Source: Actinomycetota bacterium (lineage in GTDB: Bacteria > Actinomycetota > Actinomycetes > Mycobacteriales > Mycobacteriaceae). Taken from it: a stretch of 58,333 nucleotides of DNA. A program made the position numbers and the translations under genes. The stretch spans positions 1-58,333 of the forward strand of contig JAFDWN010000041.1 of NCBI GenBank assembly GCA_018268465.1. The letters are read 5' to 3'. Position 1 is the first letter of the stretch; the number at the start of each line of letters is the position of its first letter. This document shows positions 5,818-53,891 of the stretch, in pieces. The notes below the pieces were generated by a model that had not been told where the DNA came from, ran no database searches, and worked only from the letters and a program-made list of their open reading frames with translations.

Positions 5818-5829
5818 GTAGCTCGCTAC
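5818..5829 (+). promoter_or_regulatory. Palindromic box GTAG-CTCG-CTAC before the TIR-STAND-WD40 gene
   Basis: GTAG and CTAC arms flank 4 nt. Exactly 25 nt later is GAACAT (5855-5860), a -10-like hexamer 6 nt before ATG 5867, which implies a leaderless mRNA. The flank AATTG.GGTAG..CGCTACTC is repeated at 10114-10134 before the next gene. The same box and spacing occur at 10121, 46628, 48237 and 53880. Function is inferred. Confidence 0.5.
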
Positions 5830-5866
5830 TCTGCCGGCGTCGGACGCAATACGCGAACATCGGGAC

Positions 5867-8800
5867 ATGTCGCGGGTGTTCTTAAGCTACTCCCGCCGCG
5901 ACAAGGCCGCGGCGCAGGCGTTGAAGACCTGGCTCGAGCAGAACCTGCCGGGCTTGGACGGTGAGATCTTCCTCGATTCCGATCCCGAGACGGGGATCGT
6001 CGCGGGGACACGGTGGAAGGAAGCGTTGCGGCGGGCCAACGACCGCTGTGAAGCCGTCATCTGCCTGCTCTCGGCGCAGTGGGATGCCTCGCACGAATGC
6101 AAGACCGAGTACCGCAATGCAGAGGACCGCGGCAAGCCGATTTTCCCGGTCCGGCTGGAGGAGGCCGCCGGGGGTGAGATCACCGGCGAATGGGAACGTT
6201 GCGACCTCTTCGGCCCCGGCCCGATGACAGCGATCACCGTCAGCGGCGCCGATGAACCCGTGCTCTTTCTCACCTCGGGCCTGCGGCGGCTATACAAGGG
6301 CCTGCTGGCCATCGGGATTGCGCCGGACACCTTTCCCTGGCCCCCGCACGATGACCCCGACCGTTCGCCCTACCGCGGATGGCAGCCGCTGGAGCCAGCC
6401 GATGCCGCGATCTACTTCGGCCGTGATGTGCAGATCAACCGGGCGTTGACCACGATCCGTGCGTCGCGCAGCTCCGGGGAGCACCGTATGTTCGTGGTGC
6501 TCGGACCGTCCGGGGTCGGCAAGTCGTCATTTCTGCGCGCCGGGCTGCTGCCACGATTGCAGCGCGACGATCGCCACTTCGTGCCGATGGAAATCGTTCG
6601 GCCACAACGGCAACCGCTGACCGGTGAGCACGGCTTGGCCCGATCCGTGCACGATCTGCGTGCCCGGCTCGGCTTACCTCAGCCGGCACTGGGCACGATC
6701 AAGTCGGGCATCGCGGATGCCGACGCGGTGCGCGGCTGGCTCATCGAGGCCCAGCGGGCGGCGGTGGACCGACTCCTGGACGCCGGCGACGTGCGGACGC
6801 CACCGACGATCGTGCTCCCCGTCGACCAGGCCGAGGAGTTGTTCGGCGCCGATGCGGGAACGGAGACCGACCCGTTCCTGGCGGTAATTGCAGGTTTGCT
6901 TGCACAGGAGCCCTCGGAGCTGCAGTTCATGGTGATCGTGACCATTCGTACCGACCGCTACGAGCTCTTCCAGACCGCGCCGCGACTGGCCGCGGTGGAC
7001 CCGTACCCGTTCGACGACCTCAAGCCGATGCCACCGGATCGCTACCGCGAAGTGATCTGCGGACCTGCCGCCCGGGCGGAGAGCGCCGGCAGGCCGGTGG
7101 CGTGGGCGCCCGAATTGGTCGACCGGCTGCTGACGGATTGTGCGGCGGGCGCCGACGCGCTGCCGTTGCTGTCTCTCACGCTGGCCAGACTCCACGAGGA
7201 CTACGGCGACGGCGACATCACCGTGGCGGAATATGAGGCGATCGGCGGGATGCGGCGGGTGATCGAGACGGAGATCGACACGATCTTGTCCGTACCCGCC
7301 GAGCTTCGCCGCAATGACCTGGACATTCTCCACGGCGCATTCATTCCCTGGCTTGCCACGATCAATCCGGCGAACGACCAGCCGATGCGGCGCCCTGCCC
7401 GGTATTTCGACCTGCCCGCGGACTGCCACCAGCTGATCGACAAGCTGGTCGCCAGACGATTGCTGGTCAAGGGTGAGCGAAACGGCGACGTCGTCGTCGA
7501 GGTCGCGCTGGAAAGCCTGCTGCGCCAATGGGACATCATGGCGGCGTGGCTGCAGGCCGAGTCCGCCGACCTCAAGCACACCGACTCCGTCGAGCAGGCG
7601 GCCCGGGCGTGGGACGACAACGATCGCCACAGCGATTGGCTGCTGGAGGGGGGACGCCTCGCCGAGGCAGAAGCCCTTGCCGCCAAACCAGGTTTCCGCG
7701 ACCGGCTCAACACAGCCCGCGAATTCCTGTTGGCTTCGCGTCAGCGCGAAGACCGCCGCGCCGAGGAGGCGGTGCGTTCCGCCCGCGAACGGCAGCAGGC
7801 CGCCGAAGACATGGCCGCAGCGGCGCGCCGATACTCGCGCAGGCTGGTCAGCTTCCTCTTGGTGACCGTGGTGTTCGCCGCGGCCGCAGGAGTGGGGATG
7901 TTCGTCGCGGTGCGGGCGTACCGGGATGCGACCGCGCAGAGGTTGATCGCCGAATCGCGCAACATGCTGGAGGACGGAGCGGACGCGTCCATGTTGCAGC
8001 AGCTCCTGGCCGGCCGTAATCTGTCGGCTTCGCCCCGTGACGCGGAGTTCTACCCGATGGTTGCGAACGCCGCCAGCACCTGGAAGATCATGGCCAATCC
8101 GTCGCGGCCGGAAGGGCATGGCCTGGTGCCGGTCCAGAGTGTCGCCGTGAGTCGCGACGGAGCTCACATCGCCTCGGGGAGCAACGATCACACGGTGCGA
8201 TTGTGGAATGCCCGTACCGGGGCGCTCGAGCGGTCGATCGACGTCGGGGGAGCGGGGGCAGTGTGGAGTCTGGCGTTCAGCGCCGACGGTGCCCGCATCG
8301 TTTCGGGAAGTGAAGATGGGCGGATGCAAGTGTGGGACGCCGCCGCCGGCGACCGCATCGGTGTTCCCATGCAACACCCGTCGAGGGTGACCGGTATCTC
8401 CCTCAACGCCGACGGAACGAGGATCGCGACGGGCGGTGAGGACGGTGTGCGCATCTGGAACGCCGGTGGAGGTGCATACACCCGCGTCGGTGATCCCGGC
8501 ACGCTGGTGCGCGCCGTGTCCTTCAGTCCGACCGCGTCCGTGGTGGCGTCGGGCGACGAAGGCTCGGCCGTGCGGCTGTGGGACGCCGACGGCGGCGGCA
8601 TGGTCGCCGAGTCGCTCGCGGGCGACGCTCCGGTCATGAGTCTGGCGTTCAGCGGCGACGGATCCCGGCTCGCGGTGGCCCGAATCGACGGGACGATCGC
8701 GATTCTCGACGGGCGCACGTTGGAGACCATGGTCGAGCCCTTCCTCGCGCATCCCACCATCGTGCAGAGCGTGGCGTTCAGTCCCGACGGTTCCCGAATC

Positions 8801-10090
8801 GCCTCGGGCGGGGCCGACAACGTGATCAGCGTCTGGGATGCCGACTCCGGTTCAGCCATCGGCAGTCCGCTGCAGGGCCACCGTGGGCCCGTGTCGTCGG
8901 TGGCGTTTACCGCGGACGGAACCCGCATCGTGTCGGGCAGCCTGGACGGATCGGTCCGGATATGGGATTCGGTTATCGGTCTGCCGATTCCAGCGCAGCA
9001 AGGGGCAATCCGCGCGGTGGCGTTCAGCCCCGACCCGACTCGTATGGTGATCGCGTCCGGCGGCTCCGACGGCACGGTGAAGCTCTGGGATGCGTCGACG
9101 GCCAAGCTGATCGGGCGCCTGGGCGAGGCTTCCGCCACCACCGATCATGCGATCAACAGCCTCGCGTTCGACCCGCAGGGAAAGCGGATCGTGACGGCGG
9201 CATCCGACGGCCGGGTGTCACTGTGGGATGTCGCCGACCGCCGGCTGATCTCCGTTCTCCCGATGGCCGCGCCGGCGGGCGAACCGCTGCTGGACAATCC
9301 GCGGATGCAGAGTGTCGCGTTCGACCGGGACGGAACACGAATCGTCGCAGGCGGCTTCGACGGCGTGCTGCGATTGTGGGATGCGTTGATTCTCAGGCAG
9401 ATCGGCGCAGCAGGCGCGCATCGAACCGACAAGGACGGTCAGAAGGTGCCGTATCAGGTGTGGAGCGTCGCATTCAGCCCCGACGGCACCCGGGTGGCTT
9501 CGGGATCGGGATTCGACTCCGATTCCGGGCAGAACAACCTGATCCAACTGTGGGACACCGGCTCGATGACCGCCGACGGTGCTCCGATCGAGATCGGGGA
9601 GGCTCGCGAGTCGAATGTGTTCGCCGTCGGCTTCAACCCGGACGGTTCACGCATTGTCTCGGGTAGCACCGACGGAACCGCTCGCGTGTGGGATCTCGCG
9701 ACCCGCCAGCCCGTCGCGGTCCTCAGCGGAGACCAGAACCCGGTGTTCAGTGTCGCGTTCGCCCATACGAATCCGTGGATCGCCGCCGGCGACGCGCAGG
9801 GTACCGTCCGGCTCTGGGACATGGTCAACCAGCCACCCTCGGGCACACCTTTGGAGGGGCACCGCAGATGGGTGCACAGCGTGGCATTCAGCCCCGACGA
9901 CCGTCTGATCGTGTCGGGCAGCGCGGACGGAGACCTCCGGCTGTGGCCGACGCCGACCGACGTCGGCACCGCCATCTGCGGGAAGCTCACCGAGAACATC
10001 AGCCACAAGCAGTGGCGGGAATGGACGCAGTCCCGGTGGATTCGCTACTCCCGGCTCTGCCCGGATCTGCCTGTCTCGCCCGACGTGTGA
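5867..10090 (+). CDS. Membrane-anchored TIR-STAND NTPase-WD40 repeat protein
   Basis: The 1,407-residue protein has four parts. Residues 1-130 form a TIR domain (VFLSYSRRDK start; SHECKTE with Glu81 at the position of the NADase glutamate). Residues about 168-640 form an nSTAND-type NTPase: SPYRGWQPLEPADAAIYFGR hallmark, Walker A GPSGVGKSS at 213-221, Walker B-like TIVLPVDQAEELF near 314. One transmembrane helix lies near 660-685, before about 14 WD40 repeats (roughly 745-1375, each ending xVRLWDxx), enough for two seven-bladed propellers. STAND proteins act as ligand-triggered switches and TIR domains often cleave NAD+, so a defence or stress-sensing role is plausible, but no partner gene is adjacent. 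The propellers would lie on the opposite side of the membrane from the TIR-NTPase if the single helix spans it. A promoter box ending 37 nt upstream suggests leaderless expression. Confidence 0.85.
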   Translation: MSRVFLSYSRRDKAAAQALKTWLEQNLPGLDGEIFLDSDPETGIVAGTRWKEALRRANDRCEAVICLLSAQWDASHECKTEYRNAEDRGKPIFPVRLEEAAGGEITGEWERCDLFGPGPMTAITVSGADEPVLFLTSGLRRLYKGLLAIGIAPDTFPWPPHDDPDRSPYRGWQPLEPADAAIYFGRDVQINRALTTIRASRSSGEHRMFVVLGPSGVGKSSFLRAGLLPRLQRDDRHFVPMEIVRPQRQPLTGEHGLARSVHDLRARLGLPQPALGTIKSGIADADAVRGWLIEAQRAAVDRLLDAGDVRTPPTIVLPVDQAEELFGADAGTETDPFLAVIAGLLAQEPSELQFMVIVTIRTDRYELFQTAPRLAAVDPYPFDDLKPMPPDRYREVICGPAARAESAGRPVAWAPELVDRLLTDCAAGADALPLLSLTLARLHEDYGDGDITVAEYEAIGGMRRVIETEIDTILSVPAELRRNDLDILHGAFIPWLATINPANDQPMRRPARYFDLPADCHQLIDKLVARRLLVKGERNGDVVVEVALESLLRQWDIMAAWLQAESADLKHTDSVEQAARAWDDNDRHSDWLLEGGRLAEAEALAAKPGFRDRLNTAREFLLASRQREDRRAEEAVRSARERQQAAEDMAAAARRYSRRLVSFLLVTVVFAAAAGVGMFVAVRAYRDATAQRLIAESRNMLEDGADASMLQQLLAGRNLSASPRDAEFYPMVANAASTWKIMANPSRPEGHGLVPVQSVAVSRDGAHIASGSNDHTVRLWNARTGALERSIDVGGAGAVWSLAFSADGARIVSGSEDGRMQVWDAAAGDRIGVPMQHPSRVTGISLNADGTRIATGGEDGVRIWNAGGGAYTRVGDPGTLVRAVSFSPTASVVASGDEGSAVRLWDADGGGMVAESLAGDAPVMSLAFSGDGSRLAVARIDGTIAILDGRTLETMVEPFLAHPTIVQSVAFSPDGSRIASGGADNVISVWDADSGSAIGSPLQGHRGPVSSVAFTADGTRIVSGSLDGSVRIWDSVIGLPIPAQQGAIRAVAFSPDPTRMVIASGGSDGTVKLWDASTAKLIGRLGEASATTDHAINSLAFDPQGKRIVTAASDGRVSLWDVADRRLISVLPMAAPAGEPLLDNPRMQSVAFDRDGTRIVAGGFDGVLRLWDALILRQIGAAGAHRTDKDGQKVPYQVWSVAFSPDGTRVASGSGFDSDSGQNNLIQLWDTGSMTADGAPIEIGEARESNVFAVGFNPDGSRIVSGSTDGTARVWDLATRQPVAVLSGDQNPVFSVAFAHTNPWIAAGDAQGTVRLWDMVNQPPSGTPLEGHRRWVHSVAFSPDDRLIVSGSADGDLRLWPTPTDVGTAICGKLTENISHKQWREWTQSRWIRYSRLCPDLPVSPDV

Positions 10091-10120
10091 ACTCTGCCCG
10101 GCATGGCACCCCGAATTGAG

Positions 10121-10132
10121 GTAGTGCGCTAC
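10121..10132 (+). promoter_or_regulatory. Palindromic box GTAG-TGCG-CTAC before the secreted protein/RiPP-like pair
   Basis: The box is followed after 25 nt by the -10-like hexamer TAACGT (10158-10163), predicting a 5' leader of about 37 nt before ATG 10207. Its flanks match those at 5811-5831 in 18 of 21 positions. It is the second member of the five-site set. Confidence 0.5.
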
Positions 10133-10206
10133 TCGCGTGTGCAGCGGGCCGGGGACTTAACGTGCACTACACACGTCCTACAGGCGGGACACGAAAAGAG
10201 TTCGAC

Positions 10207-10533
10207 ATGAGTAGAGCCACAGCCAGAATCTTGGCTGCCGCGGTGGTCGCGTCGGGGGTCGCGATCGGACCGACGGTCAGCCCCGTGGCGACCTCGGCGC
10301 CGGCCGACTACTGCCTGGTGCCACCGGGAGTTCGGCCGGGGCCGGGGTGCGTCAAACAAGCGAAAACGCCACCGCCACCGAGGCCGCAGCTGCCGCCACG
10401 CAGTCCGAAGCCCGGGTCCGTTCCCCTTGGCTTCGCCCCCGGAGCGCCGGATGCCATCGGGTTATGGCCGCGGCCTAGCGAAGACAGCGTCGTGATGTGC
10501 ATCCCACTCGAAGGAAGGTACGAACTGACATGA
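10207..10533 (+). CDS. Small secreted Cys/Pro-rich protein
   Basis: The 108-residue product has an N-terminal signal peptide (basic start, hydrophobic ILAAAVVASGVAIG, likely cleavage after the ATSA region). A proline-rich mature part follows with three cysteines: DYCLVPPG, GPGCVKQ and VVMCIPLEG. No enzyme fold is recognisable. The start was chosen for the signal peptide; the ribosome site AAAAGAG is weak. Its TGA overlaps the ATG of the next small gene (ATGA at 10530-10533), so the two are probably translationally coupled. It lies downstream of a GTRG-N4-CTAC box shared with the TIR-STAND-WD40 gene. Confidence 0.65.
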   Translation: MSRATARILAAAVVASGVAIGPTVSPVATSAPADYCLVPPGVRPGPGCVKQAKTPPPPRPQLPPRSPKPGSVPLGFAPGAPDAIGLWPRPSEDSVVMCIPLEGRYELT

Positions 10534-10673
10534 TCACCACCGTCATCGATCGTCTGGTTGCGGACGACGTTCTGCTCCCGCAGGTCTCCGACGAAGATCT
10601 GGAAGCCGCCGCGGAGGAGACGGCGCTGTCGTACACGTATCAAACATCGGCGTACAACCGTTGCTGTAGTTGA
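10530..10673 (+). CDS. Candidate RiPP precursor peptide (47 aa)
   Basis: This short gene starts inside the stop of the upstream secreted-protein gene. Its N-terminal part ends in VSDEDLEAAAEE, which resembles the acidic D/E-x-L-x-x-A end of leader peptides in lanthipeptide-like precursors. The C-terminal part, SYTYQTSAYNRCCS, is rich in Ser/Thr/Tyr and ends in a vicinal Cys pair, as expected of a modifiable core. There is no signal peptide. No LanB/LanM/LanC, YcaO, radical-SAM or peptidase gene is present in the window, so a modifying enzyme would have to be encoded elsewhere. That the gene is translated is supported by the ATGA coupling; the RiPP assignment is inference. Confidence 0.45.
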   Translation: MITTVIDRLVADDVLLPQVSDEDLEAAAEETALSYTYQTSAYNRCCS

Positions 10674-10842
10674 TATTTCGTGACACGAATGCTGGATGCG
10701 CGAGCGGACCGCCGACGGGAATTGATTCCGATGGCACAGGCGATGGGCATGTTCGTGATGTCACGGGGCCGCTGAGAATCCGCTTCCAACGGAGGTCGCC
10801 ATCTCGGTGACGGTCGGCGGGCTCCGCTGATGCGGAGCCTGC

Positions 10843-12156
10843 TCAGGCCCGAGGGCCGCCGACCGGGCTCAGCCGAGAAGCAGCGATCGAATGCACGATC
10901 TCCGCGCTGCGCACGGCGATGTTGGACAGCAGCGATGACGTCAGCCCGTGGGTGTGTTCGGTGTTGCCCTGGATGTAGAGCCCGCCCGCGGTGGGCGGTG
11001 AGGTGGACAGCCGGTAGTCGCGCGACACGACGGGCTGGCCATCGGCCAGCACCAGGTCGTCGTAGAGGTCACCGAGGATGGCGCGCAGCGGCGTCGGCAG
11101 GAAGCCGGTGGCGTAGATGACGGCGTCGCAGTCGATCTGGTCGACGGCCCCGGTGGGGTGGTGCAGGATGTGCACCCGCACACCGTCCTCGTCCTCCTCG
11201 GTTTTGTGCACGCTCGACGCGCCCCGGATGAACAATCGTCGACGACCCGCGACCCGTTCGGCGTACTCGCGGGCGTAGAGATCCTCGATGAGGGTGAGGT
11301 CGACGGCCGAGTAGTTGGTGCTGCGGTGGTAGCTGATCAGCTGTCTGCGCACACCGGGGTCGGCGTCGTAGAAATCGTTGACGGCGCCGGGATCGAACAC
11401 GCGGTTGGCGAACGGGCTGTCGTCGGCCGGGCTGTACCCGTACTTGGCGAACACGCCGTGTACCTCCACCGACGGCGACATGGCATGCAGATGGCCGGCC
11501 ACCTCGGCGGCGCTCTGTCCCGCCCCGACGACGGCGAACCTGTTGTGTCTGCGGGACGGTAGCCGCCGCAGGTCGTGCAGGAAGCCGTGATTGTGGATCT
11601 GGCGGGCCGAGGGTGTGACGCCCTGCGGGAGTTGGGGGTGCAGTCCGCCGGCGATCACGACATTGCGGGCCCGTAGCCGTCCCGCGGCCGCGCCGGTCAC
11701 GTCGATGTCGAAGGCCCCGTCGGCATCGTGGATGGCGGTGACCCGCGACCCGTACTGCACCTCGGCGTCGACCTTGTCCGCGGCCCAGGACAGGTAGTCG
11801 TGGAACTCCAGCCGGGTCGGGAAGAAGGTCTTGTAGTTGATGAACTCGGTGAGCCTGCCCCGTTCGGTCAGGTACTTCAGAAAGGTGAAGTCGCTCTGTG
11901 GATTACGTTGTGTGACGAGGTCTTTGAGGAAGGAGATCTGCATGGTGGCGCCCGGTATCAGCATTCCGGTGTGCCAGCCGAATTCGGGTTTGGCCTCCAC
12001 GAACGCCGCGGTGAGCGGCCGGGTGACGCCCGGCAGGTTGTTGTGTTCCTGGACGGCGATCGCCAATGCCAGGTTGGAAGGCCCGAATCCGACCCCGACG
12101 AAATCCAGCACCCGGTGGTGGCCGTTTGACGATGGGGCGGCTGTCCCTGCCATCAC
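10843..12156 (-). CDS. L-ornithine N5-monooxygenase (SidA/PvdA/lysine-ornithine hydroxylase family)
   Basis: This 437-residue flavoprotein has the family's FAD motif ([12 protein letters not shown]), the [11 protein letters not shown] segment, an NADPH motif ([14 protein letters not shown]), [12 protein letters not shown] and the C-terminal ATGF. The family hydroxylates the side-chain amine of ornithine or lysine using NADPH and O2. Hydroxyornithine is the building block needed by NRPS modules 1, 3 and 5 here, so ornithine is the likely substrate. Its start overlaps the panD stop by an ATGA, so both are made from one iron-regulated message. Cytoplasmic. Confidence 0.9.
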
Positions 12157-12560
12157 GCGCCTGCCATCTGGTCGACGGCGCCCGGTACGGGCTGGGCGGG
12201 GTCGGATCCGAGTCCGACGATCCGGTTCGCCGAGTTCACGTGCACGACCCTGGCCAGGTGGCTGTCGCGCTCGGTGTCGTCCAGGGTGACGAAGGACATG
12301 ATGATGACGAGGTTGCCGGGTGAAACCAGATGTGCCGCCGCGCCGTTGATGCCGATGACGCCGGACGCCGGGGCTCCGGCGATGGCGTAGGTGACCAGGC
12401 GGGCGCCGGTGGTGATGTCGACGACGTGTACCTGCTCGCCTTCGACGATGTCCGCCGACGCCATCAATTCGGCGTCGATGGTGATCGATCCGACGTAGTG
12501 CAAGTCGGCTTGGGTGACCGTCGCCCGGTGAATCTTGCCCGCGAGCAATGTCCGTTGCAT
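12153..12560 (-). CDS. panD: Aspartate 1-decarboxylase paralogue supplying beta-alanine for the siderophore
   Basis: The 135-residue product matches Pan[21 protein letters not shown] with the early Lys, then YVGSITID containing the Gly-Ser self-cleavage site that generates the pyruvoyl cofactor. It further shows [20 protein letters not shown] and [20 protein letters not shown] 12560 (AAAGG just upstream) gives the family length. The reaction is L-aspartate to beta-alanine plus CO2. It overlaps the ornithine monooxygenase gene and follows an IdeR box, not the panBC pantothenate genes. Together with the beta-alanine-type A domain of NRPS module 2, this indicates a dedicated siderophore copy. 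Confidence 0.85.
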
Positions 12561-12635
12561 CCTCGACCTTTCCCCACCTGATCCAAGCGGCCCTGCCCGT
12601 TGCGCGAGTCCGCGGTGCAGCTCGTGCTGCAGCAT

Positions 12636-12654
12636 TAAGCGAAGGCTAACCTAA
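12636..12654 (-). promoter_or_regulatory. IdeR iron box before panD-monooxygenase
   Basis: The 19-bp site matches TTAGGTTAGSCTAACCTAA at about 15 positions, with one half site (GGCTAACCTAA) perfect. It lies 76 bp upstream of the panD start. IdeR with Fe2+ would repress the operon. Confidence 0.75.
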
Positions 12655-12789
12655 ATCACAGGCAATGCAATACCTCGCCGGGTAGTGCAATTGGGCCGCA
12701 GCGCAACCGAAACAGACTGCGAGCCAGCCATTTCTGTGGAGTACCTGTGAATTGCCTGCGAAGAGGAATCAACGCCGTCGCCTCGGAAA

Positions 12790-12808
12790 TTACCTTAGCC
12801 TAAGCTAA
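12790..12808 (+). promoter_or_regulatory. IdeR iron box before the siderophore-binding lipoprotein gene
   Basis: TTACCTTAGCCTAAGCTAA matches the mycobacterial iron-box consensus at 16 of 19 positions and is nearly palindromic. It lies 38 bp before the preferred start codon. Confidence 0.75.
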
Positions 12809-12846
12809 TGTGCTGGCTGCAATGATGCCGAGTGAAGGGACTACGT

Positions 12847-13824
12847 GTGAAGCTGCGTTTCGGGAGGTGGCGCGGTGCCGTGGCTGTCGTCGCCGTGATT
12901 CTCCTGGCGGGAATGGCAACTGCCTGCGGTACATCGCAAAACGATGCCGCGCCTACGGAGGGGGTGACGATCAGCCACAAGTTCGGTGAGACAACTGTCC
13001 CGGCAAATCCGAGCCGGGTGGTCACCGTCGGATGGACGGATCAGGATTTCGTGCTGCCATTCGGGGTGGTTCCCGTCAGCACCCGTGAATTCTTCGAGAA
13101 CTACAACAACTATCCCTGGGTCAAGGACGCCACCGACGGGAAGGGCGTAAGCACCTGGGGCAGCGACGAGATCGACTTCGAGGCGATCGCCGCGCAGAAA
13201 CCCGACCTGATTCTTGCGATCTACGAGTCGATCGACAAGCAGACCTATGAGCGGCTGTCACAGATCGCGCCGACGGTGATCCAGTCGGCGGACTACCCGG
13301 ACGAGGAAACGCCCTGGGACGTCCAGCTGCTGACCACCGGCCAGGCACTCGGCAAGGAACAAGAGGCGCGGGAACTGGTCGATCGGGTTCGCGGCCGCAT
13401 CGATGAGGCCCGTGACGCCAATCCCGAGTTCGACGGGAAAACTCTGGTGGTGGACTTCGGGCCGGAGAGCGGTGGGCACTACCTGTTGCCCGAGGGCGAT
13501 CCGCGCCGCGCGTTGTTCACCGCGCTGGGATTCAAGACCCAGGAGGTCGACGGCGACGTCAGCGAGGAGAAGCTGGAGTTGCTGGACCGGGACATCCTGT
13601 TCGTCAACGGCGCCACCAAGGAGCAGATGCTCGCCTCCCCGGCGTTCGCGCGTCTGGGGGTGGTGCGCGAGGACCGGACGCTCTACACCACATTCGATTC
13701 CAATCTCAGTGGCGCGCTGACCTACAGCGGGCCCGATGCGCTGCTCTACGCGCTCGACGTGCTCACCCCGCAGCTCGCCAACGCGCTCAACGGCAGACCG
13801 GTCGCCGATCTGTCCGACGCCTGA
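12847..13824 (+). CDS. Iron-siderophore-binding lipoprotein (ABC importer receptor, FecB/FepB-like)
   Basis: The protein begins with a basic region and hydrophobic stretch ending LLAGMATAC, a plausible lipobox with the lipidated Cys. A class III substrate-binding fold follows: PSRVVTVGWTDQDFVLPFGV, DEIDFEAIAAQKPDLILAIY, LSQIAPTV and the C-terminal FDSNLSGALTYSGPDALLYA. Of two in-frame GTG codons, 12847 is favoured because GAAGGGA sits 6 nt before it (the alternative is 12832). The protein would capture the ferric exochelin-like siderophore at the outer face of the membrane for the permeases encoded at 42484-44606. The gene converges with the NRPS gene and has its own iron box. It corresponds in role to the M. 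smegmatis Fxu receptor. Confidence 0.85.
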   Translation: MKLRFGRWRGAVAVVAVILLAGMATACGTSQNDAAPTEGVTISHKFGETTVPANPSRVVTVGWTDQDFVLPFGVVPVSTREFFENYNNYPWVKDATDGKGVSTWGSDEIDFEAIAAQKPDLILAIYESIDKQTYERLSQIAPTVIQSADYPDEETPWDVQLLTTGQALGKEQEARELVDRVRGRIDEARDANPEFDGKTLVVDFGPESGGHYLLPEGDPRRALFTALGFKTQEVDGDVSEEKLELLDRDILFVNGATKEQMLASPAFARLGVVREDRTLYTTFDSNLSGALTYSGPDALLYALDVLTPQLANALNGRPVADLSDA

Positions 13825-13836
13825 CGTCGTTCGCCA

Positions 13837-13869
13837 GAATGCCCGCCGGAGTGTCTCCGGCGGGCATTC
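13837..13869. terminator. Bidirectional hairpin between receptor and NRPS genes
   Basis: A perfect 15-bp inverted repeat (13837-13851 with 13855-13869) has a TGT loop and lies between the two convergent stop codons. The AAT/ATT ends give a short T-run in both directions, so it can serve as a terminator for both transcripts. Confidence 0.85.
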
Positions 13870-13875
13870 GCCGTC

Positions 13876-36630: not shown

Positions 36631-36703
36631 GAGTCGGCAACCCTTCGTCGTGTGGTGGATTCGCATGTCCGAATGGGGCTTTCGCGCACCCCCGCGGTGT
36701 CGA

Positions 36704-38476: not shown

Positions 38477-38504
38477 GGGTTTCTGAACCTCGGGGTTTCC
38501 GTGC

Positions 38505-40489: not shown

Positions 40490-40615
40490 AGAGACTCCTC
40501 CCGCTTTGCCGTCGGGCGCGACCGGGTCCGCCCTGCGGCGTCTCACGGATCGGGCCTTGGCCTGTCTGCGGCAGCGGGGGCGATGGTGCCCGCCGGTGCC
40601 GGAACGGATGCTATC

Positions 40616-40634
40616 AAAGGTTAGGCTAACCATT
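40616..40634. promoter_or_regulatory. IdeR iron box between mbtH operon and fxbA
   Basis: The core AGGTTAGGCTAACC is a perfect match to the inner 14 bp of the iron-box consensus (14/19 overall). It lies in the divergent interval, 41 bp before fxbA and about 125 bp before mbtH, so it could repress both. Confidence 0.75.
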
Positions 40635-40675
40635 GTGGGCTAGGCCGCAGTCGGAGAGAAGTCTGGGAGGTTGCT

Positions 40676-42428: not shown

Positions 42429-42483
42429 GGTGGATCACCTTCTCGTGAAATGGTTTCCGCGGCTATCGCGATCGAGTGCCCGA

Positions 42484-44606: not shown

Positions 44607-44612
44607 GGCGGG

Positions 44613-45503: not shown

Positions 45504-45508
45504 CGGGG

Positions 45509-45527
45509 TTAGGTTACCCTAAGGTAA
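45509..45527 (-). promoter_or_regulatory. IdeR iron box overlapping the promoter of the import operon
   Basis: TTAGGTTACCCTAAGGTAA matches the iron-box consensus at 16 of 19 positions. Its end is only 5 nt from the GTG start of the reductase gene, so bound IdeR would cover the -10 and the start site. Confidence 0.8.
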
Positions 45528-45679
45528 TCTGTGGGTCGGAACCGCCGTGCCGTTGTGCCCCGATACCTTCGGGCCCGCACATTCTCCGGTGCTCACGGGG
45601 CGAACCCAGCTAGGGTCCGTGGCGGGACCGTCGGGCATTGACCACCGAGACGGCGCGCCCACCATACGAGGAGCGATCG

Positions 45680-46543
45680 GTGACGGAGACCGCGGCAGCC
45701 AACCAGATCGTCCTGACACGCCGGTCGCCGGCGTATTGGCGCATCACATTCGACCATCCGCCGCTGAACATCTTCGGGCCGGAGACCATTCCGGAGCTCG
45801 ACGCGATCATCACCGCGCTGGAGACCGACGAGCGCGTCACGGTCGTGGTCTTCGACAGCGCGGTGGACGGGTTCTTCCTGACGCACTACAACTTCGTGGC
45901 GAAGCTGGAGGAGTCGACGCGGCTGCCGGCGGGCCGGACCGGCCTGCAGCAGCTTCCCGATCTGCTCGCGCGGCTGAGCCGCGCGCCGGTCGTCTCGATC
46001 GCCGCCATCCGGGGGCGTGCGACAGGTGTGGGCAGCGAACTGGCGCTGGCCAGTGACATGCGGTTCGCCAGCCGGGAGAAGGCGATCCTGTCGCAATGGG
46101 AGGTCGGCGCGGGTCTGGTGCCCGGCGGCGGGCCGATGGCGCGCCTGCCCCGCCTGATCGGACGCGGACGCGCGCTGGAGGTCCTGCTCGGCGCCGACGA
46201 TATCGACGGCGAACTGGCCGAGTTGTATGGCTACGTCAACCGTGCGCTGCCCGATGCCGAGCTCGACGGGTTCGTCGACGCGCTCGCGAGGCGAATCGCG
46301 TCGTTCGACAAACGGGCGATCGCCGAGACGAAGCGTCTGGTCGATGTGAACAGTCTGCCCAGCGACGCCGAGATCGCGCCGGAGTGGGACGCATTTCTCG
46401 GTGCCCTGGGCCGCCCTGAAACCCAGGCGCGGATCCGGACATTGTTCGACCGCGGCTTCCATGAACCCGGCGATGTCGAGACGCGGCTCGGCTATCACGT
46501 CGGCCTGCTCGGCGACGGCGCGGACACGCCGGACAGCGGATAA
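45680..46543 (+). CDS. Enoyl-CoA hydratase/isomerase (crotonase) family protein
   Basis: The 287-residue protein has a crotonase core. ITFDHPPLNIFGPETI opens the fold, VSIAAIRGRATGVGSELALASDMRFA carries the oxyanion-hole glycine and the acidic position, and ILSQWEVGAGLVPGGGPMARLPRLIGRGRALEVLL follows. GTG 45680 is preferred because GAGGAG lies 6 nt upstream; an in-frame TTG at 45638 has no ribosome site. It is divergent from the siderophore import operon but shows no functional link to it. Its substrate is unknown. Confidence 0.8.
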   Translation: MTETAAANQIVLTRRSPAYWRITFDHPPLNIFGPETIPELDAIITALETDERVTVVVFDSAVDGFFLTHYNFVAKLEESTRLPAGRTGLQQLPDLLARLSRAPVVSIAAIRGRATGVGSELALASDMRFASREKAILSQWEVGAGLVPGGGPMARLPRLIGRGRALEVLLGADDIDGELAELYGYVNRALPDAELDGFVDALARRIASFDKRAIAETKRLVDVNSLPSDAEIAPEWDAFLGALGRPETQARIRTLFDRGFHEPGDVETRLGYHVGLLGDGADTPDSG

Positions 46544-46627
46544 CCGGCTGCCGCATCGGGGCGGGAACACGGACAGTAGTCGGCGTCGTCGCGCGTAGCC
46601 GACCTGGCCGGGACACGGCCGATTCGA

Positions 46628-46639
46628 GTGGTCGGCTAC
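46628..46639 (+). promoter_or_regulatory. Box GTGG-TCGG-CTAC before a small secreted peptide gene
   Basis: The box is followed after exactly 25 nt by GACGAT (46665-46670), a -10-like hexamer, 41 nt before ATG 46711. The GGTCGGCTAC part also pairs perfectly with GTAGCCGACC at 46595-46604, so the site is within a larger inverted repeat. It belongs to the same set as 5818, 10121, 48237 and 53880. Confidence 0.4.
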
Positions 46640-46710
46640 CTACGGTTCGGGTGCGCCGCGGCGCGACGATCAAACCGTTGATATCCATCGTGCGAACCAG
46701 GGAGCTTCTC

Positions 46711-46881
46711 ATGGCTACTCGAGTTGGTCGAAAGACACAGGGCAAGAGAAGACTTCGCACGCACCTGACCCGGCTGGGGCTCGCGGTATCGGCGGCCGTT
46801 GTCACGCTGATGGGACCGGCCACCGCGATCGCCGAGGCCAGACTGGCTGGCAATCACAACGAGGTGATGGTCCGGCGTTGA
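46711..46881 (+). CDS. Very small exported peptide (56 aa)
   Basis: ATG 46711 follows AGGGAG at good spacing. The product has a very basic N-terminus (RVGRKTQGKRRLRTHLTRLG) and a hydrophobic signal core (LAVSAAVVTLMGPATAIA). A predicted signal-peptidase site near AIA leaves a mature peptide of only about 13-16 residues ending RLAGNHNEVMVRR. No family is recognised. The promoter box and 5' leader length match those of the other small secreted genes in the window. A peptide signal or toxin would fit, but nothing here proves it. Confidence 0.5.
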   Translation: MATRVGRKTQGKRRLRTHLTRLGLAVSAAVVTLMGPATAIAEARLAGNHNEVMVRR

Positions 46882-47179
46882 GATGTCGGCCGGTGTCACG
46901 GTTCCGCGGGCCCGCACCGTGCGGTCTCGGCGATTCGGCGACAGGGGGAGCGCCTGCCGAGGACGGACACGGGCGGTGACCGGCCGTGGCGCCGGCCGGC
47001 TCGGGTCGGCGGTCCAGGCCCGACGGCGCGCCGGCTGTGTGGACGTGCACTCGACATCTTCGAGACCGGTTTGGGCCGTGATCATCCAAAGACCGCGCGC
47101 AGCAGGGCGACGCTGGCCGAAATCGCATCCGGCCGAAAAGAGTTCGACGTACTGTAGCTCGAAGACAATACTGGACACG
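46882..47179 (+). other. Apparently non-coding interval
   Basis: The frame is open upstream of the phosphotransferase, but its translation is Arg-rich and shows no domain. I see no clear promoter motif, repeat or RNA structure. A palindromic half site, GTAGCTCG (47155-47162), echoes the box at 5818 but lacks the second arm. Confidence 0.4.
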
Positions 47180-48145
47180 GTGCTGACCCCTGACCAGCTC
47201 TCCGCCCGAACCGCCCGCGCGGTGGCGGCCGCGACGGGCGCCGGCCACGAACTCGGAGTGCGTTCGGAGGACCCGAGGGTGCTCCACGACATGTTCTCCG
47301 TCGTCGTCCATCTCGCTCCGGCACCGGTGGTGGTGCGGGTGCCGACGGTGCTGCCCCGTCCCTATATCGACGTGCCCACCCGGCTGACGGCCCAGCAGCG
47401 TTCCGAGATCGCGGTGGCGGGCTGGTTGGCCGACCGCGGCCACCCCGTGATTGCGCCGAGCCCACTGGTGCCCCGCGAACCCGTTCAGCGGGAAGGCTTC
47501 TCGATGACGTTCTGGCAGTACGTCGAGGAGTTCCCGGATACCGATCCCGATGTGGAACGGCGCTGCGCGATGACCGCTCGCCTGCACGCCGCGCTGCGCG
47601 GTTACCACGGCCGTGGCCTCGGTTTCTGGACGCCGTTTCGGACCTACATCCCCGATGGGCTCACCGCACTCGCACACCGACCGGATCTGCTGAACGTCGC
47701 GGATGCTGAACGGGCACAACGAGACTGGTCTGTTCTGGCACCGTTGCTCGCGTCTCGGACCGCCTTCGAAACCGCCTTCCCCGGCGCCGGGACCCAAACG
47801 ATCCACGGCGACGCGCCCTTTCACAACGTGATCGTCACCGCGACCGGCGAACGCTGGTCGGACTTCGAACTCGTCACCTCCGGGCCGGTGGAGTCCGACG
47901 TCGCGATGGCGGGTCCGCAAGGCCGCGCCGCCTATGACCGGGCCGCGGACGGATTGGGGCTGCGTCGGCTCGATGAGCGCGTGCTGAGGATCACCGAGTC
48001 CGCCGGGCTGCTGGCCGCGGTTGCGTGCCTGGCCATGGCGCCGCAGCTGCCCATGCTCGTCGACGCCGTGCGACCGGCCGTCGACACCTGGCGGTCCGCG
48101 TCGCCGGCCGCGGACGTGATCCCGCAACCGCGCGATCACGCGTAG
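47180..48145 (+). CDS. Aminoglycoside/choline-type phosphotransferase (APH family)
   Basis: The C-terminal half has the APH kinase-like catalytic loop HGDAPFHNVIVT (HGDxxxxN) and the metal-binding WSDFELV (the DFE position of DxD/DFG). The N-terminal lobe contains VVVRVPTVLPRP and the family's LARLHAALR-like segment reads MTARLHAALRGYHG. GTG 47180 gives 321 residues, normal for the family; upstream in-frame sequence is not protein-like and no strong ribosome site is visible, so the start is uncertain. The phosphorylated substrate is unknown, and resistance cannot be claimed from this sequence. Confidence 0.7.
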   Translation: MLTPDQLSARTARAVAAATGAGHELGVRSEDPRVLHDMFSVVVHLAPAPVVVRVPTVLPRPYIDVPTRLTAQQRSEIAVAGWLADRGHPVIAPSPLVPREPVQREGFSMTFWQYVEEFPDTDPDVERRCAMTARLHAALRGYHGRGLGFWTPFRTYIPDGLTALAHRPDLLNVADAERAQRDWSVLAPLLASRTAFETAFPGAGTQTIHGDAPFHNVIVTATGERWSDFELVTSGPVESDVAMAGPQGRAAYDRAADGLGLRRLDERVLRITESAGLLAAVACLAMAPQLPMLVDAVRPAVDTWRSASPAADVIPQPRDHA

Positions 48146-48236
48146 TACTGCGCGCCACGAGTATCCGTGGCCGGGGATCGCCGCCGTTCCCGCGGGTAGC
48201 TGGAGTCGTCGTGACGCGCGACGGCGCCGAAATCGG

Positions 48237-48248
48237 GTGGTGGACTAC
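48237..48248 (+). promoter_or_regulatory. Box GTGG-TGGA-CTAC before a secreted protein gene
   Basis: Exactly 25 nt after the box lies GACGAT (48274-48279), identical to the -10-like hexamer at 46665 and at the same spacing. It lies 41 nt before ATG 48321, again the same distance as at 46711. Confidence 0.4.
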
Positions 48249-48320
48249 CGCCTTCGTGGTTTCGCCGCGGCATGACGATGGATCCGTCCACCAATAGGTG
48301 GCTCAATCAGGGGGATTATC

Positions 48321-48620
48321 ATGACAATTCGCACACGGGTCGGCACCCGCTCGACTGCCGCCGGAAAGTCCGCAGCCGCCGTCGCGTCCTGTGCGGCGTT
48401 CGTCGGTCTGGGTCTGTTCGCCGGCGGTGGCACCGCCGCCGCCGAAGGATTGGACGCCACGCCGCTGCCGCCGGCCGTCATCGACCTCGACGGCACTCAG
48501 ACCTACGACACCTCGTCTTTCCCGATGGCCCCGACGTGGCCGGCGCCACCGGCGTGGGGGTCGCATCCCGCGGATCCGTCGTGGCCGGGTGTTTCGTCGC
48601 ATCCGTGCTGCTCGCGCTAG
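48321..48620 (+). CDS. Small secreted protein with C-terminal Cys pair
   Basis: The 99-residue product has a long signal peptide (basic MTIRTRVGTRSTAAGKS, hydrophobic AAVASCAAFVGLGLFAGGG, probable cleavage at TAAA-EG). The mature part of about 57 residues is rich in Pro and Trp and ends SHPCCSR. ATG 48321 follows a GGGGGATTATC leader. No family is recognised. The vicinal Cys pair near the C-terminus resembles that of the small gene at 10530-10673. Promoter box and leader length link it to the other small secreted genes here. Confidence 0.6.
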   Translation: MTIRTRVGTRSTAAGKSAAAVASCAAFVGLGLFAGGGTAAAEGLDATPLPPAVIDLDGTQTYDTSSFPMAPTWPAPPAWGSHPADPSWPGVSSHPCCSR

Positions 48621-48641
48621 TGGGATTGGCCGCACAGTGGG

Positions 48642-50896
<2,255 letters not shown>

Positions 50897-51048
50897 AAGG
50901 CTCCTCGTGCAGTGGGTGTTCCGGTGCGTGGGGTCCTGAGTCGACGATCTCACATCAGCGCGCACGGGTGCGCCGTCGTGCGCCGGCCACCGTCCGGTCA
51001 TGCCCGACGGCGGCCCGTGTGGTGTCCGTCGGCGTCAGCCCGGGCTGG

Positions 51049-52677
51049 TCACAGTGGGATCGCCCCGGCGTAGGGCACCCCGCTGAGATAGGCGAAGTCG
51101 CGGTCGAAGGTCACGAGGTCGTCGAGGTCGAAGTCGGCCAGGCGGCGGTGGCCGCACGCCCGCGCCAGGACGACCATCAGGTCCACCGCCGAGCGCAGAA
51201 ACCGCTCCAGACGCTCCGCCGCGGCCTGCGAGGGCAGTCGGCTGCGCAGGTGCGGGTTCTGCGTGGCGATGCCGACCGGGCAGGTGTTCGTGTTGCACGC
51301 GCGCATACCGACGCAGCCGATGGCTTGCAGGGCCGCGTTGGACAGTCCGATCGCGTCGGCGCCCAGCGCCAGCGCCTTGACCATATCCGCCGGGGTGCGG
51401 ATGCCGCCGGTGGCTGCCAGCGTCACCTGGCCGGCCTGGCTGCGATCGAGATGCCGGCGTGCGCGGGCCAGCGCGGGAATGGTCGGCACCGAAATGTTGT
51501 CGCGGAAAATCGTTGGTGCGGCTCCCGTTCCACCGCCACGACCATCGAGGATGATGTAGTCGACGCCGATCTCCAGTGCCGCGTCGATGTCGCGCTCGAT
51601 GTGCTGTGCGCTCATCTTGTATCCGACCGGTATGCCCCCGGATACGTCGCGAACCTCGGCGGCGAAATCCCGGAACTGCTGCAGCGACGTCCAGTCCGGG
51701 AACCGCGCCGGCGAGATCGCCGACGTCCCCGGTGGCAGGCCGCGAACCTCGGCGATCCTGCCGACCACCTTGGTGCCTGGCAGATGTCCGCCCGTGCCCG
51801 TCTTGGCGCCCTGGCCGCCCTTGAAGTGGAACGCCTGGACTTTGCGGACGTGGTCGAAGCTCCAGCCGAACCTGCCGGAGGCGAGCTCGTAGAAGTACCG
51901 CGAATTCTCCTGCTGCTCTTCGGGAAGCATGCCGCCCTCACCCGAACAGATTCCGGTGCCGGCGAGTTCGGCCCCCCGCGCCAAAGCGATCTTGGCTTCC
52001 TCGGAGAGCGCACCGAAGCTCATGTCGCTCACGAAGACGGGGATGTCGAGCACCAACGGCCGATTGGCGGCCGGGCCGATGACCGTCTCCGTGTTGACGG
52101 GTTCGTCGTCGAGCAGCGGCAACCGTGCGAGCTGCGCGGTGACGAGCTGGATGGAATCCCATTCAGGCAGCTGGTCGCGCGGAACCCCCATTGCCGCCGT
52201 CGGCCCGTGCTTGCCGACCCTGCTCAAGCCATGCGCCGCGAATTCGTGGATCTGGGTAACGTACGGCTCTTCGGCGGTGTTGGTGGGGCTGATCCACCTG
52301 CCCTGGTAGCCGTCGTCGTCGTAGGTTCGTGGGTTGGCGCGCGCGTACTCGGCCACCGCCGCGTCATCGACAAAGACCGAGCCGTCGGACACCCACGCGG
52401 GGAATGCCGTGAGCGATACCGCGGGGTTGACGGGGGAGACGCCGGTCTCGATCTCGTAGCGCCACCCGTGGACGCCGCAGACGACGACGTCGCCGTCGAC
52501 TCGGCCGTCGGCCATCAGCGCCCCGCGGTGGGCGCAGCGACCGTAGAGCGCCGAGACGTCGCCGCCCCGGCGGATCAGCACGATATCGACACCGGCAGCC
52601 GACACGGCATACGGAGTGTTCTCGGGCACCTCGGAAATCGACGCGAGACGCGTGGCCGTTTTCGGTTCAGTTGTCAC
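51049..52677 (-). CDS. Rieske [2Fe-2S]-glutamate synthase-like FMN fusion protein
   Basis: The N-terminal 100 residues carry a Rieske motif (CAHRGAL, then CGVHGWRYE: C-x-H and C-x-x-H). The rest matches the FMN-binding central domain of glutamate synthase: VFVSDMSFGALSEEAKIALA, CSGEGGMLPEEQ, KGGQGAKTGTGGHLPG, DGRGGGTGAAP, LAATGGIRTPADMVKALALG and CNTNTCPVGIATQ (cysteines for a 3Fe-4S cluster). No glutamine amidotransferase domain is present. GTG 52677 is preferred; the frame continues upstream but the extra residues are not protein-like. It is divergent from a MarR gene that may regulate it. The electron path and substrate are unknown. Confidence 0.8.
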   Translation of the reverse strand: MTTEPKTATRLASISEVPENTPYAVSAAGVDIVLIRRGGDVSALYGRCAHRGALMADGRVDGDVVVCGVHGWRYEIETGVSPVNPAVSLTAFPAWVSDGSVFVDDAAVAEYARANPRTYDDDGYQGRWISPTNTAEEPYVTQIHEFAAHGLSRVGKHGPTAAMGVPRDQLPEWDSIQLVTAQLARLPLLDDEPVNTETVIGPAANRPLVLDIPVFVSDMSFGALSEEAKIALARGAELAGTGICSGEGGMLPEEQQENSRYFYELASGRFGWSFDHVRKVQAFHFKGGQGAKTGTGGHLPGTKVVGRIAEVRGLPPGTSAISPARFPDWTSLQQFRDFAAEVRDVSGGIPVGYKMSAQHIERDIDAALEIGVDYIILDGRGGGTGAAPTIFRDNISVPTIPALARARRHLDRSQAGQVTLAATGGIRTPADMVKALALGADAIGLSNAALQAIGCVGMRACNTNTCPVGIATQNPHLRSRLPSQAAAERLERFLRSAVDLMVVLARACGHRRLADFDLDDLVTFDRDFAYLSGVPYAGAIPL

Positions 52678-52864
52678 GTATACCAATTCTGCGGCATATC
52701 CCGGTCGTGGCGTCGGCGGGCCCGCCCATCCGGGGAACCGAAGCGTCTTGAGCACGAGCATGTCGGCGACATCCTGCCCGACAAGGCGCATATCGGCGAA
52801 GCCGTCAACACCACCGGCGGGTCCTTGAGCGGGCTCACCGTCGGCCTCGTCGAGATGTGTCAAC

Positions 52865-53311
52865 ATGGTTGACGTGCCTGAGTACGAGGATCAACCGCTG
52901 GGCTATCTGCTGTACCGCACGATGGCCACGCTGCGTCCCTACGTGACCACGGAACTTCGCCCGTTGGGAATCGGGCTGCCGGAGTTCGTATGCATGCGGA
53001 ATCTGTCTTTGTGGCCGGCGCAATCCAACGCCGAACTGGCCCGCCACGCCAACGTGTCGCCGCAGGCCATGAACCTGGTGTTGCGCGGATTGCAGGATAT
53101 GGGCGCCGTGGCGCGGCCGGCCGCGGTGTCGTCGGGGCGTGCGTTGCCTGCGCGGTTGACGAGCAAGGGCAAGGCCCTTCTCAAGCGTGCCGAGGCTGCC
53201 GTCCAGGTCGCCGACGAGCGGCTATTGGCCGCGCTCACCGCGGCGGAGCGCCATGAACTCAAGAGGCTGCTCGATGCGGTGGGTTCGCCGGCCGGCGGTG
53301 TCGAAACGTGA
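52865..53311 (+). CDS. MarR-family transcriptional regulator
   Basis: The 148-residue protein shows the MarR layout. A helical N-terminus (LGYLLYRTMATLRPYV) precedes the winged helix-turn-helix (SNAELARHANVSPQAMNLVL, then RGLQDMGAVARP), with the wing GRALPARLTSKGKALL and a C-terminal dimerisation helix. It is divergent from the Rieske-glutamate synthase-like gene with 187 bp between the starts, so it likely controls that operon and itself. A hairpin terminator follows its stop. Ligand unknown. Confidence 0.85.
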   Translation: MVDVPEYEDQPLGYLLYRTMATLRPYVTTELRPLGIGLPEFVCMRNLSLWPAQSNAELARHANVSPQAMNLVLRGLQDMGAVARPAAVSSGRALPARLTSKGKALLKRAEAAVQVADERLLAALTAAERHELKRLLDAVGSPAGGVET

Positions 53312-53332
53312 GCGGATGTACCGGTCCGCGAG

Positions 53333-53367
53333 CGCGACAGCACAGGTGATGCGTGCGTGCTGTCGCG
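53333..53367. terminator. Hairpin between MarR and DUF732-like genes
   Basis: A perfect 11-bp inverted repeat, CGCGACAGCAC (53333-53343) with GTGCTGTCGCG (53357-53367), has a 13-nt loop between two convergent genes. It is probably a bidirectional terminator. Confidence 0.6.
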
Positions 53368-53450
53368 GCCTCCCGAACCGAATGACAACGGTGTGATTTA
53401 TCCACACTGTGGATAGCTCATGTGCATAACCCGCAAAGTGTCGCGGAAGG

Positions 53451-53801
53451 TCACGCAATCTCGATGCCCAGCGCGTCCTCGAATGCGCCGATGTGTTGCG
53501 GGCAGGACGAACCCATGGCCACGCCGACGGCGAAAGCGGCTGTGTCGTAGTTGAACCCACCGCGGGCCGACACTTCGTTGATGATCGATTCAATCGGGTG
53601 AATCGCGGGTGCCGGCTCGGCGAACCGGTAGTCGAGAATGCTGCAGATCTCCCGCTGGTGGTCGAGGCCGTAGTTCAGCGCGAAGGTCTCGTCGACGCCG
53701 GGGACGTCCGGTACGTCCGGTAGGGGCTGTGCGTTGGCGACTCCGGTGGAGGTCACGATGATGGCCACAGCTGCGGCGATCATCAAGCTCGCTCTGGTCA
53801 T
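53451..53801 (-). CDS. Secreted DUF732-like protein
   Basis: The 116-residue product has a clear signal peptide (LMIAAAVAIIVTSTGVANA, cleavage before QPLPD). The mature domain has two cysteines spaced as in the mycobacterial DUF732 family: REICSILDYRF, then AAFAVGVAMGSSCPQH. GAGGAC lies just before ATG 53801. Function of the family is unknown. A GTAG-N4-CTAC box at 53880-53891, followed 25 nt later by the -10-like AATACT, gives the same promoter layout as the other small secreted genes in this window. Confidence 0.75.
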   Translation of the reverse strand: MTRASLMIAAAVAIIVTSTGVANAQPLPDVPDVPGVDETFALNYGLDHQREICSILDYRFAEPAPAIHPIESIINEVSARGGFNYDTAAFAVGVAMGSSCPQHIGAFEDALGIEIA

Positions 53802-53879
53802 GGTGTCCTCATTTCTGTCGCCTTCGGGCGGACATCGTCATGGTTTCGAGTATTTGGCCGGGTCACCGGGCGCGCTAGC

Positions 53880-53891
53880 GTAGGGGACTAC
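53880..53891 (-). promoter_or_regulatory. Palindromic box GTAG-N4-CTAC before the DUF732-like gene
   Basis: Read on the minus strand, the box is followed after 25 nt by AATACT (53849-53854), a good -10 match, 47 nt before the start codon. It is the fifth site of the set, but its outer flanks do not resemble the others. Confidence 0.45.

Follow-up and report, generated by a model that had tools for sequence, protein, structure and literature searches.

The window analysed here is the whole 58,333-nucleotide (nt) stretch (positions 1-58333 of contig C35 in genome G000, 6.88 Mb) from an actinomycete of the family Mycobacteriaceae. It carries a TIR-STAND-WD40 gene and four genes of small proteins, each preceded by a palindromic box, GTRG-N4-CTAC, and a -10-like hexamer. 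A sequence-only reading had described these five sites as one promoter layout, and their coordinates and strands, as well as the hexamer exactly 25 nt after each box, are as it claimed. The features are listed below; signal-peptide-like starts were judged by eye, and E values refer to the box model R1 described further on.

5818..5829, plus strand: box GTAGCTCGCTAC, 5' of the TIR-STAND-WD40 gene; R1 match, E 1.0e-4
5855..5860, plus strand: -10-like hexamer GAACAT, 25 nt past box GTAGCTCGCTAC
5867..10090, plus strand: TIR-STAND-WD40 protein, 1407 amino acids (aa); nSTAND1 (PF20703), WD40 (PF00400), TIR-like N-terminus by eye
10121..10132, plus strand: box GTAGTGCGCTAC; R1 match, E 4.4e-7
10158..10163, plus strand: -10-like hexamer TAACGT, 25 nt past box GTAGTGCGCTAC
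10207..10533, plus strand: small protein, 108 aa, signal-peptide-like start; start 43 nt past the hexamer
10530..10673, plus strand: 47-aa open reading frame (ORF) that overlaps the 108-aa ORF at its stop; match to NF038160 (class III lanthipeptide) of 13.3 bits, below the cutoff of 27
46628..46639, plus strand: box GTGGTCGGCTAC; R1 match, E 1.5e-5
46665..46670, plus strand: -10-like hexamer GACGAT, 25 nt past box GTGGTCGGCTAC
46711..46881, plus strand: 56-aa ORF, signal-peptide-like start; start 40 nt past the hexamer
48237..48248, plus strand: box GTGGTGGACTAC; R1 match, E 1.2e-6
48274..48279, plus strand: -10-like hexamer GACGAT, 25 nt past box GTGGTGGACTAC
48321..48620, plus strand: small protein, 99 aa, signal-peptide-like start; start 41 nt past the hexamer; scanned with Pfam and NCBIfam
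53451..53801, minus strand: small protein, 116 aa, signal-peptide-like start; start at 53801, 47 nt past the hexamer
53849..53854, minus strand: -10-like hexamer AATACT, 25 nt past box GTAGTCCCCTAC
53880..53891, minus strand: box GTAGTCCCCTAC; R1 match, E 0.0102

Without the spacing, the core GTRG-N4-CTAC occurs at eight distinct positions of the window, so the evidence lies in the spacing and not in the motif, as had been argued before. The full layout GTRG-N4-CTAC-N25-NANNNT is found five times, compared with 0.04 times on average, and once at most, in 100 dinucleotide-preserving shuffles. The first two sites (5818 and 10121) do have 18 of 21 flanking positions in common, counted by eye. The start codon of the TIR-STAND-WD40 gene at 5867 is located 6 nt past the hexamer end, and this gene is predicted to be leaderless. 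The leaders proposed earlier (0 nt for the TIR gene, 35-41 nt for the small genes) are compatible with this layout if transcription starts about 7 nt past the -10, which is a presumed start.

Based on a genome-wide search, the core GTAG-N4-CTAC has 42 copies in this genome, three of them inside the window; the loci examined were the 39 GTAG sites outside the window and one GTGG site. Gene boundaries were taken from a simple codon-usage caller written for this analysis, which flagged 15 sites as lying in genes. One of these, L017, which reaches into the 3' end of a predicted gene, was counted as intergenic, giving 28 intergenic sites and 14 in genes. NANNNT is present 25 or 26 nt past the core, in at least one orientation, at 26 of the 28 intergenic sites (exceptions L002 and L025; 25/27 if L017 is omitted). 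When both orientations of the 28 intergenic sites are counted, the hexamer occurs 22 times at 25 nt and six times at 26 nt, against about one on average at other offsets, and the 28 orientations of in-gene sites give 0 and 2, respectively. The test is not circular because the sites were selected by the core alone. The 25 oriented occurrences, among which L010 has a -10 in both orientations, yield the consensus CCGAAWTCGA-GTAG-YNNR-CTAC-TCRNGNC with NANNNT at 25, and position -6 is A in 22 of them. Model R1 was built on 24 of these 25 spacing-25 rows (the second L010 orientation was omitted) and gives 67 matches in the genome at E<=10 and 36 at E<=0.0102; the latter represent 34 distinct places and include the 24 training sites. 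Collectively, the box with its 25-nt spacing is enriched between genes, as the sequence-only reading had anticipated, and the five promoters of the window appear to belong to a genome-wide regulon of about 30 promoters. The TIR-STAND gene and the four secreted genes are a local sample of a regulon of wider function.

The same arrangement recurs in another genus, where genome G141 has 33 cores, 29 of them intergenic. A -10 is found at 25 nt in 20 of these 29 and at 26 nt in one more, compared with 0/4 in genes; by orientation, 21 of 58 intergenic cases have it at offset 25, with L246 carrying it both ways. Two further G141 loci, L265 and L276 (contigs C16 and C22), have identical flanks and are probably copies of one repeat. 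The genus member G034 has seven cores, against 33 in G141 and 42 in the window's genome; four are intergenic and one has the spacing. This genome has no R1 match and, among the matches listed, one weaker relative (E 4e-59) of the regulators described below.

The promoters themselves are degenerate. The first base of the hexamer is T at 5/24 sites of the window's genome and at 2/19 sites of G141. At the position expected for the end of a -35 element with a 17-nt spacer, GAC is present at 8/24 and 5/19 sites, respectively, compared with about 2% at control positions; for 16- or 18-nt spacers, the count is 0 among the same 24 and 19 sites. This comparison used 19 of the 21 offset-25 rows of G141, omitting the minus strand of L246 and L276. 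The earlier proposal was an activator replacing the -35 contacts. An activator is still the best explanation, but the residual xxGAC at 17-nt spacing indicates that the box abuts a degenerate -35 and does not replace it, and these GAC counts exclude a complete absence of the -35. Taking the -10 as -12 to -7, the box would span -49 to -38 with its centre near -43.5. The operator thus adjoins a degenerate -35 at a fixed distance from the -10, as in class II promoters, given the presumed start. In class II activation by LuxR-type proteins, the lux box lies near -42.5; these systems likewise have a palindrome beside or overlapping the -35. In contrast, the regulators named below are not quorum-sensing LuxR proteins; scanned with Pfam and NCBIfam, they gave no match to an autoinducer domain, and their LuxR matches were limited to the helix-turn-helix (HTH).

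The sequence-only reading had left the regulator open; a family, the LAL-type LuxR regulators, can now be named for it. At L007 and L028, the box comes directly after a gene for a large protein with a C-terminal LuxR HTH (PF00196, GerE). The two proteins are 877 and 867 aa long in full, and their HTH matches, scored on partial sequences, have E values of 3e-11 and 9e-13. The N-terminal half has AbsR2 (NF050132) as its best NCBIfam match, with an E value of 8e-69 and a score far below the cutoff of that model, and contains a Walker-like motif, GDAGVGKTT, seen by eye; the NCBIfam match to MalT covers the HTH only. A LAL gene likewise precedes the box in the mycobacterial loci L071, L078, and L089, which were found by R1.

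To collect LAL loci without any DNA criterion, a protein-alignment search (A2) was used, and the best 80 of at least 161 relatives were taken. These 80 loci contain 46 exact cores in 958,309 bases, and 44 of the 46 have a -10 at 25 or 26 nt. Thirteen cores lie within -20 to +600 nt of a LAL stop (binomial p 3e-7 for clustering), all with a -10, in Mycobacterium and close relatives, Rhodococcus, Nocardioides, and Pseudonocardiales. With a stricter rule (7 of 8 core positions, -10 at 25 or 26 nt, -20 to +150 nt from the LAL stop), 17 of the 80 loci have an adjoining box. In the window's genome, a Tle1-like hydrolase gene carrying a 7-of-8 box and a -10 at 25 nt precedes the LAL gene at L188:4358-6961, and after this LAL come a further box and an Rv2525c-like amidase gene. 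Another LAL gene of this genome is at L180:5311-7935. The order of box promoter, hydrolase, and LAL is repeated in G033 (L244) and G066 (L237), with an additional box between hydrolase and LAL in G066; the Pfam scan covered the hydrolase of L188, which is Tle1-like, and the other two were identified by eye. In G141 (L235), the order is LAL, box, LAL. Autoregulation of LAL genes through the box is therefore probable and appears conserved in L188, L244, and L237.

LAL genes and boxes also occur together across genomes. R1 (E<=0.01) matches 71 of 98 genomes of the genus, with 0 to 33 matches per genome, and 48 of 121 genomes of the family, in 19 of 31 genera. Among the 121 family genomes, 41 have both LAL and box, five LAL only, seven box only, and 68 neither (Fisher p 2e-19). 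Outside the genus of the window, the corresponding counts are 35, 5, 7, and 67 (p 4e-17), and by genus they are 17, 0, 2, and 12 (p 6e-7). In one of the two box-only genera (g14), a box stands beside a gene with a LAL-like HTH scoring below the cutoff (L193, L198). Within the genus, the LAL groups were assigned by hand from E values and ranges, and the counts that follow hold among the matches listed. All 30 genomes with an L188-type LAL (E<1e-180) have at least two R1 matches (median 8); the 68 genomes without it have a median of 1, and 27 of them have none. The L007-type group (37 genomes, overlapping the former) has a median of 7, with two genomes lacking matches. Of 48 genomes without either group, 44 have 0-3 matches and four have 7-9. 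A LAL match at E<=1e-40 is found in 94 of the 98 genomes.

Moreover, the bases beside the core covary with the HTH. We compared 25 adjoining LAL-box pairs, 17 from the 80 loci and eight from nine further loci (by the rule used, L078 has no box). The left flank ends in CA, mostly TGCA, in 10 of 11 LALs with RTVES...KTG in the HTH (S-type), compared with 1 of 14 of all others (p 3e-5), and reads NCGA in all nine LALs with KLD, KLG, or KVD. Two LALs with RSVEGHIFRASQRNG have the left flank TGGG, and the right flank often mirrors the class of the left. This covariation is suggestive of a specificity code; it is not proof because a LAL gene and its adjoining box are inherited together.

Several observations weigh against assigning the box to LAL proteins. 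Among the 80 LAL loci, 63 lack a box in the interval from -20 to +150 nt around the LAL stop. The five family genomes with a LAL and no R1 match and the seven with a match and no LAL at the cutoff run counter to the association, and the co-occurrence p-values are overstated since related genomes are not independent. G058, G071, G084, and G094 are the four genomes that combine 7-9 matches with the absence of the two close LAL groups; a more distant LAL may serve there. The flanks of the window's own boxes fit neither flank class cleanly, and neither does the LAL of L183 in the same genome, whose box flank is TCAA. Finally, no box was found 5' of the 16 resolved TIR-STAND homologues from other mycobacterial species (20 loci out of 29 homologue-bearing genomes: 16 resolved, three unresolved, and one of the window's own genome). 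Conservation at these homologues was accordingly dropped as proof of the box. The expectation that the box would be conserved at orthologous promoters thus has a mixed outcome: the box recurs at other promoters, such as those of the LAL operon and a SARP-like gene, and was not found at the 16 resolved TIR-STAND homologues.

Weighing these data, we consider it very probable that the box is an operator of LAL-type LuxR transcriptional activators. A LAL protein of about 870 aa would combine a STAND-like ATPase half, a helical repeat region, and the C-terminal LuxR HTH. A dimer of the HTH domains would occupy GTAG-N4-CTAC from roughly -49 to -38, contact the degenerate -35 (xxGAC), and recruit RNA polymerase with the main sigma factor to the weak -10 (NANNNT, mostly not T-initial) in a class II manner. 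Paralogous LALs would have the core box in common and differ in the adjoining bases, an HTH with RTVES...KTG pairing with a left TGCA and one with KLD, KLG, or KVD pairing with TCGA. From these patterns we infer DNA binding, activation rather than repression, the start sites, the assignment of LALs to sites, and the existence of an inducing signal.

The strongest competing explanation, which we nevertheless regard as unlikely, is that a LAL protein on this operator blocks polymerase and that derepression turns the genes on. The box ends about 2 nt ahead of the degenerate -35, near enough to interfere, and the Streptomyces LAL SCO6993 is reported, in the available part of its description, to repress (PMC9628970). 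However, the degenerate -10 and -35 elements, with T-initial hexamers at only 5/24 and 2/19 sites, suit promoters that need help. A palindrome centred near -43.5 at a constant spacing of 25 or 26 nt is usual for activators, and a repressor needs no constant spacing.

Somewhat less credit goes to a different DNA-binding protein that travels with LAL genes, for example, a SARP-like or cyclase-AAA regulator. The box precedes two SARP-type genes (L006, with a BTAD domain by Pfam; L018, assigned by eye with no Pfam match), and boxes lie near cyclase-AAA genes at L034 (Pfam) and L040 (by similarity to L034). In contrast, the flanking bases track the LAL HTH type, and the LAL gene is the recurrent neighbour of the box in other genera. 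SARPs, moreover, bind direct repeats. These two regulator types were therefore set aside as binders of the box. An alternative-sigma-factor promoter of which the box is a part would account for the strict spacing to the -10 and is very improbable: both NANNNT and the xxGAC that remains at 17 nt are as expected for the main sigma factor, and the core is strictly palindromic, which sigma -35 elements are not. A chance arrangement of a common motif, present as GTRG-N4-CTAC at eight window positions, is refuted by five layouts against 0.04 expected and by the offset peak in two genera, and its probability is negligible.

The LAL reading can be compared with described systems. Like MalT and other LAL activators, the proteins found here have an ATPase half, a repeat region, and a C-terminal GerE/LuxR HTH. 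MalT works via short boxes in direct repeat (PMC6099782, PMC9628970), whereas a single palindrome at a fixed, inferred -43.5 is seen here; MalT-type direct-repeat boxes were not found, the operators of the window's genome being palindromic and single. AbsR2 resembles these LALs as the best NCBIfam match of their ATPase half, and we take AbsR2 and SCO6993 to be the same or close proteins. SCO6993 of Streptomyces coelicolor is reported to bind palindromes and its own promoter, and its authors could predict no consensus site (PMC9628970). Unlike the activators proposed here, it is a repressor, and the GTAG-N4-CTAC core is absent from the four protected sequences quoted in the available text (PMC9628970). 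IniR, a mycobacterial regulator close to its target operon iniBAC, has a MalT-like ATPase and a LuxR-like C-terminus (PMC5760070) and is alike by description; it differs in its reported specificity for iniBAC. The accessible part of its description states no box or motif, and IniR was rejected as a source of the motif (PMC5760070). The promoter of TpdR, a LAL activator of Rhodococcus jostii, has two 7-nt inverted repeats 4 nt apart near -35, and T-33A abolishes its activity (PMC6099782). TpdR is similar in layout, being an activator with inverted repeats near -35; unlike here, the binding site put forward in that study is a 15-nt direct repeat (PMC6099782).

In the searched literature, no paper contains GTAGNNNNCTAC or its five variants, and within the parts of that literature available, no described regulon with this box was found, in agreement with the sequence-only reading. 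LAL regulators are a known kind, and a LAL regulon with a single palindrome at a fixed position would be new. The LAL family would gain a DNA address, none having been found in print in that search. LAL genes are frequent, yet their operators are poorly defined, as the SCO6993 study, which derived no consensus in the text available, illustrates (PMC9628970). A core operator with constant geometry and an HTH-tied flank code would allow targets to be predicted from sequence across many genera.

The genes downstream of the box outline what the regulon might do. Besides the TIR-STAND-WD40 protein (PF20703, PF00400), they encode a caspase-domain protein (PF00656), two Rv2525c-like glycoside-hydrolase proteins (PF08924) with amidase and peptidoglycan-binding domains, an M23 peptidase with a peptidoglycan-binding domain, a papain-like protein (PF00112), and a Tle1-like phospholipase (PF09994). 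Divergent boxes serve a matrixin-like protease and a DUF5995 protein. Further members are the SARP regulator with a BTAD domain (L006), an MMPL transporter (L021), an ABC transporter and a polyketide synthase (the last three by eye), and many small proteins without a family in the scans. A second MMPL transporter (L187) has a 7-of-8 core only, with an R1 E value of 6.5. When eight proteins, targets or regulators, were scanned with PADLOC, one match was to a caspase and one fell in a WD40 region, the rest being weak HTH matches. The same genome has a second TIR-STAND gene (G000 C71:129041, L231), which shares 66% identity with that of the window across the first 400 aa. Its 7-of-8 box, at -51, is almost as far from the start as in the window's gene, and a -10-like hexamer follows at 26 nt, or at 24 nt as judged by eye.

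The box would unite genes of unknown function with no other evident connection, those of small secreted proteins, TIR-STAND, caspase, Tle1-like phospholipases, and Rv2525c-like hydrolases, in one response, and this grouping would make the sensor cue testable by a simple reporter. We tentatively suggest, as a possibility with the odds against it, that paralogous STAND-ATPase regulators use one core box together with a flank code to run parallel conflict regulons, responding to attack or envelope damage with a mixed arsenal. Equally speculative is the make-up of that arsenal, which might comprise secreted cell-wall hydrolases, LysM proteins, Tle1-like phospholipases, a Tc/VRP1-like protein, proteases, and, as a second line, TIR-STAND and caspase effectors. 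If true, bacterial conflict systems in Mycobacteriaceae and relatives would have a transcriptional layer, run by STAND-ATPase regulators that are cousins of NLR immune sensors in domain logic.

Regarding the small genes of the window, the 108-aa protein has no family in the Pfam or NCBIfam scans. The 116-aa protein has a DUF732-like match below the cutoff and no homologue at E<=1e-8 among 197 other genus genomes. The ORF at 46711, with only 56 codons and a signal-peptide-like start, is the least certain of the five target genes; the ORF of an APH-family phosphotransferase begins after it, at 46883. The 47-aa ORF at 10530-10673 is a possible peptide product of the same box-driven unit as the 108-aa secreted ORF.

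Elsewhere in the genome, a large box-driven protein (L029:2775-5012) has a match to VRP1, which is Tc-toxin-related, of 21.3 bits, just under the cutoff of 22. A box-bearing arrangement of a SARP-like small gene (by eye) followed by an ORF of 37-38 aa occurs at L018 and in three other genomes (L072, L079, and L095), where the SARP-like gene lies near ispD (by eye). Cyclase-AAA-type proteins cluster near some boxes (L034, L040, L180, and L191; one by Pfam, the others by eye or similarity) and also near a LAL gene on contig C55. Within the window, positions 10843-46570 hold a siderophore-type nonribosomal peptide synthetase region with a 7596-codon synthetase ORF (by eye), a Lys/Orn N-monooxygenase (PF13434) and a formyltransferase (PF00551) by Pfam, and an MbtH-like ORF and transporters by eye; this region presumably resembles an exochelin cluster.

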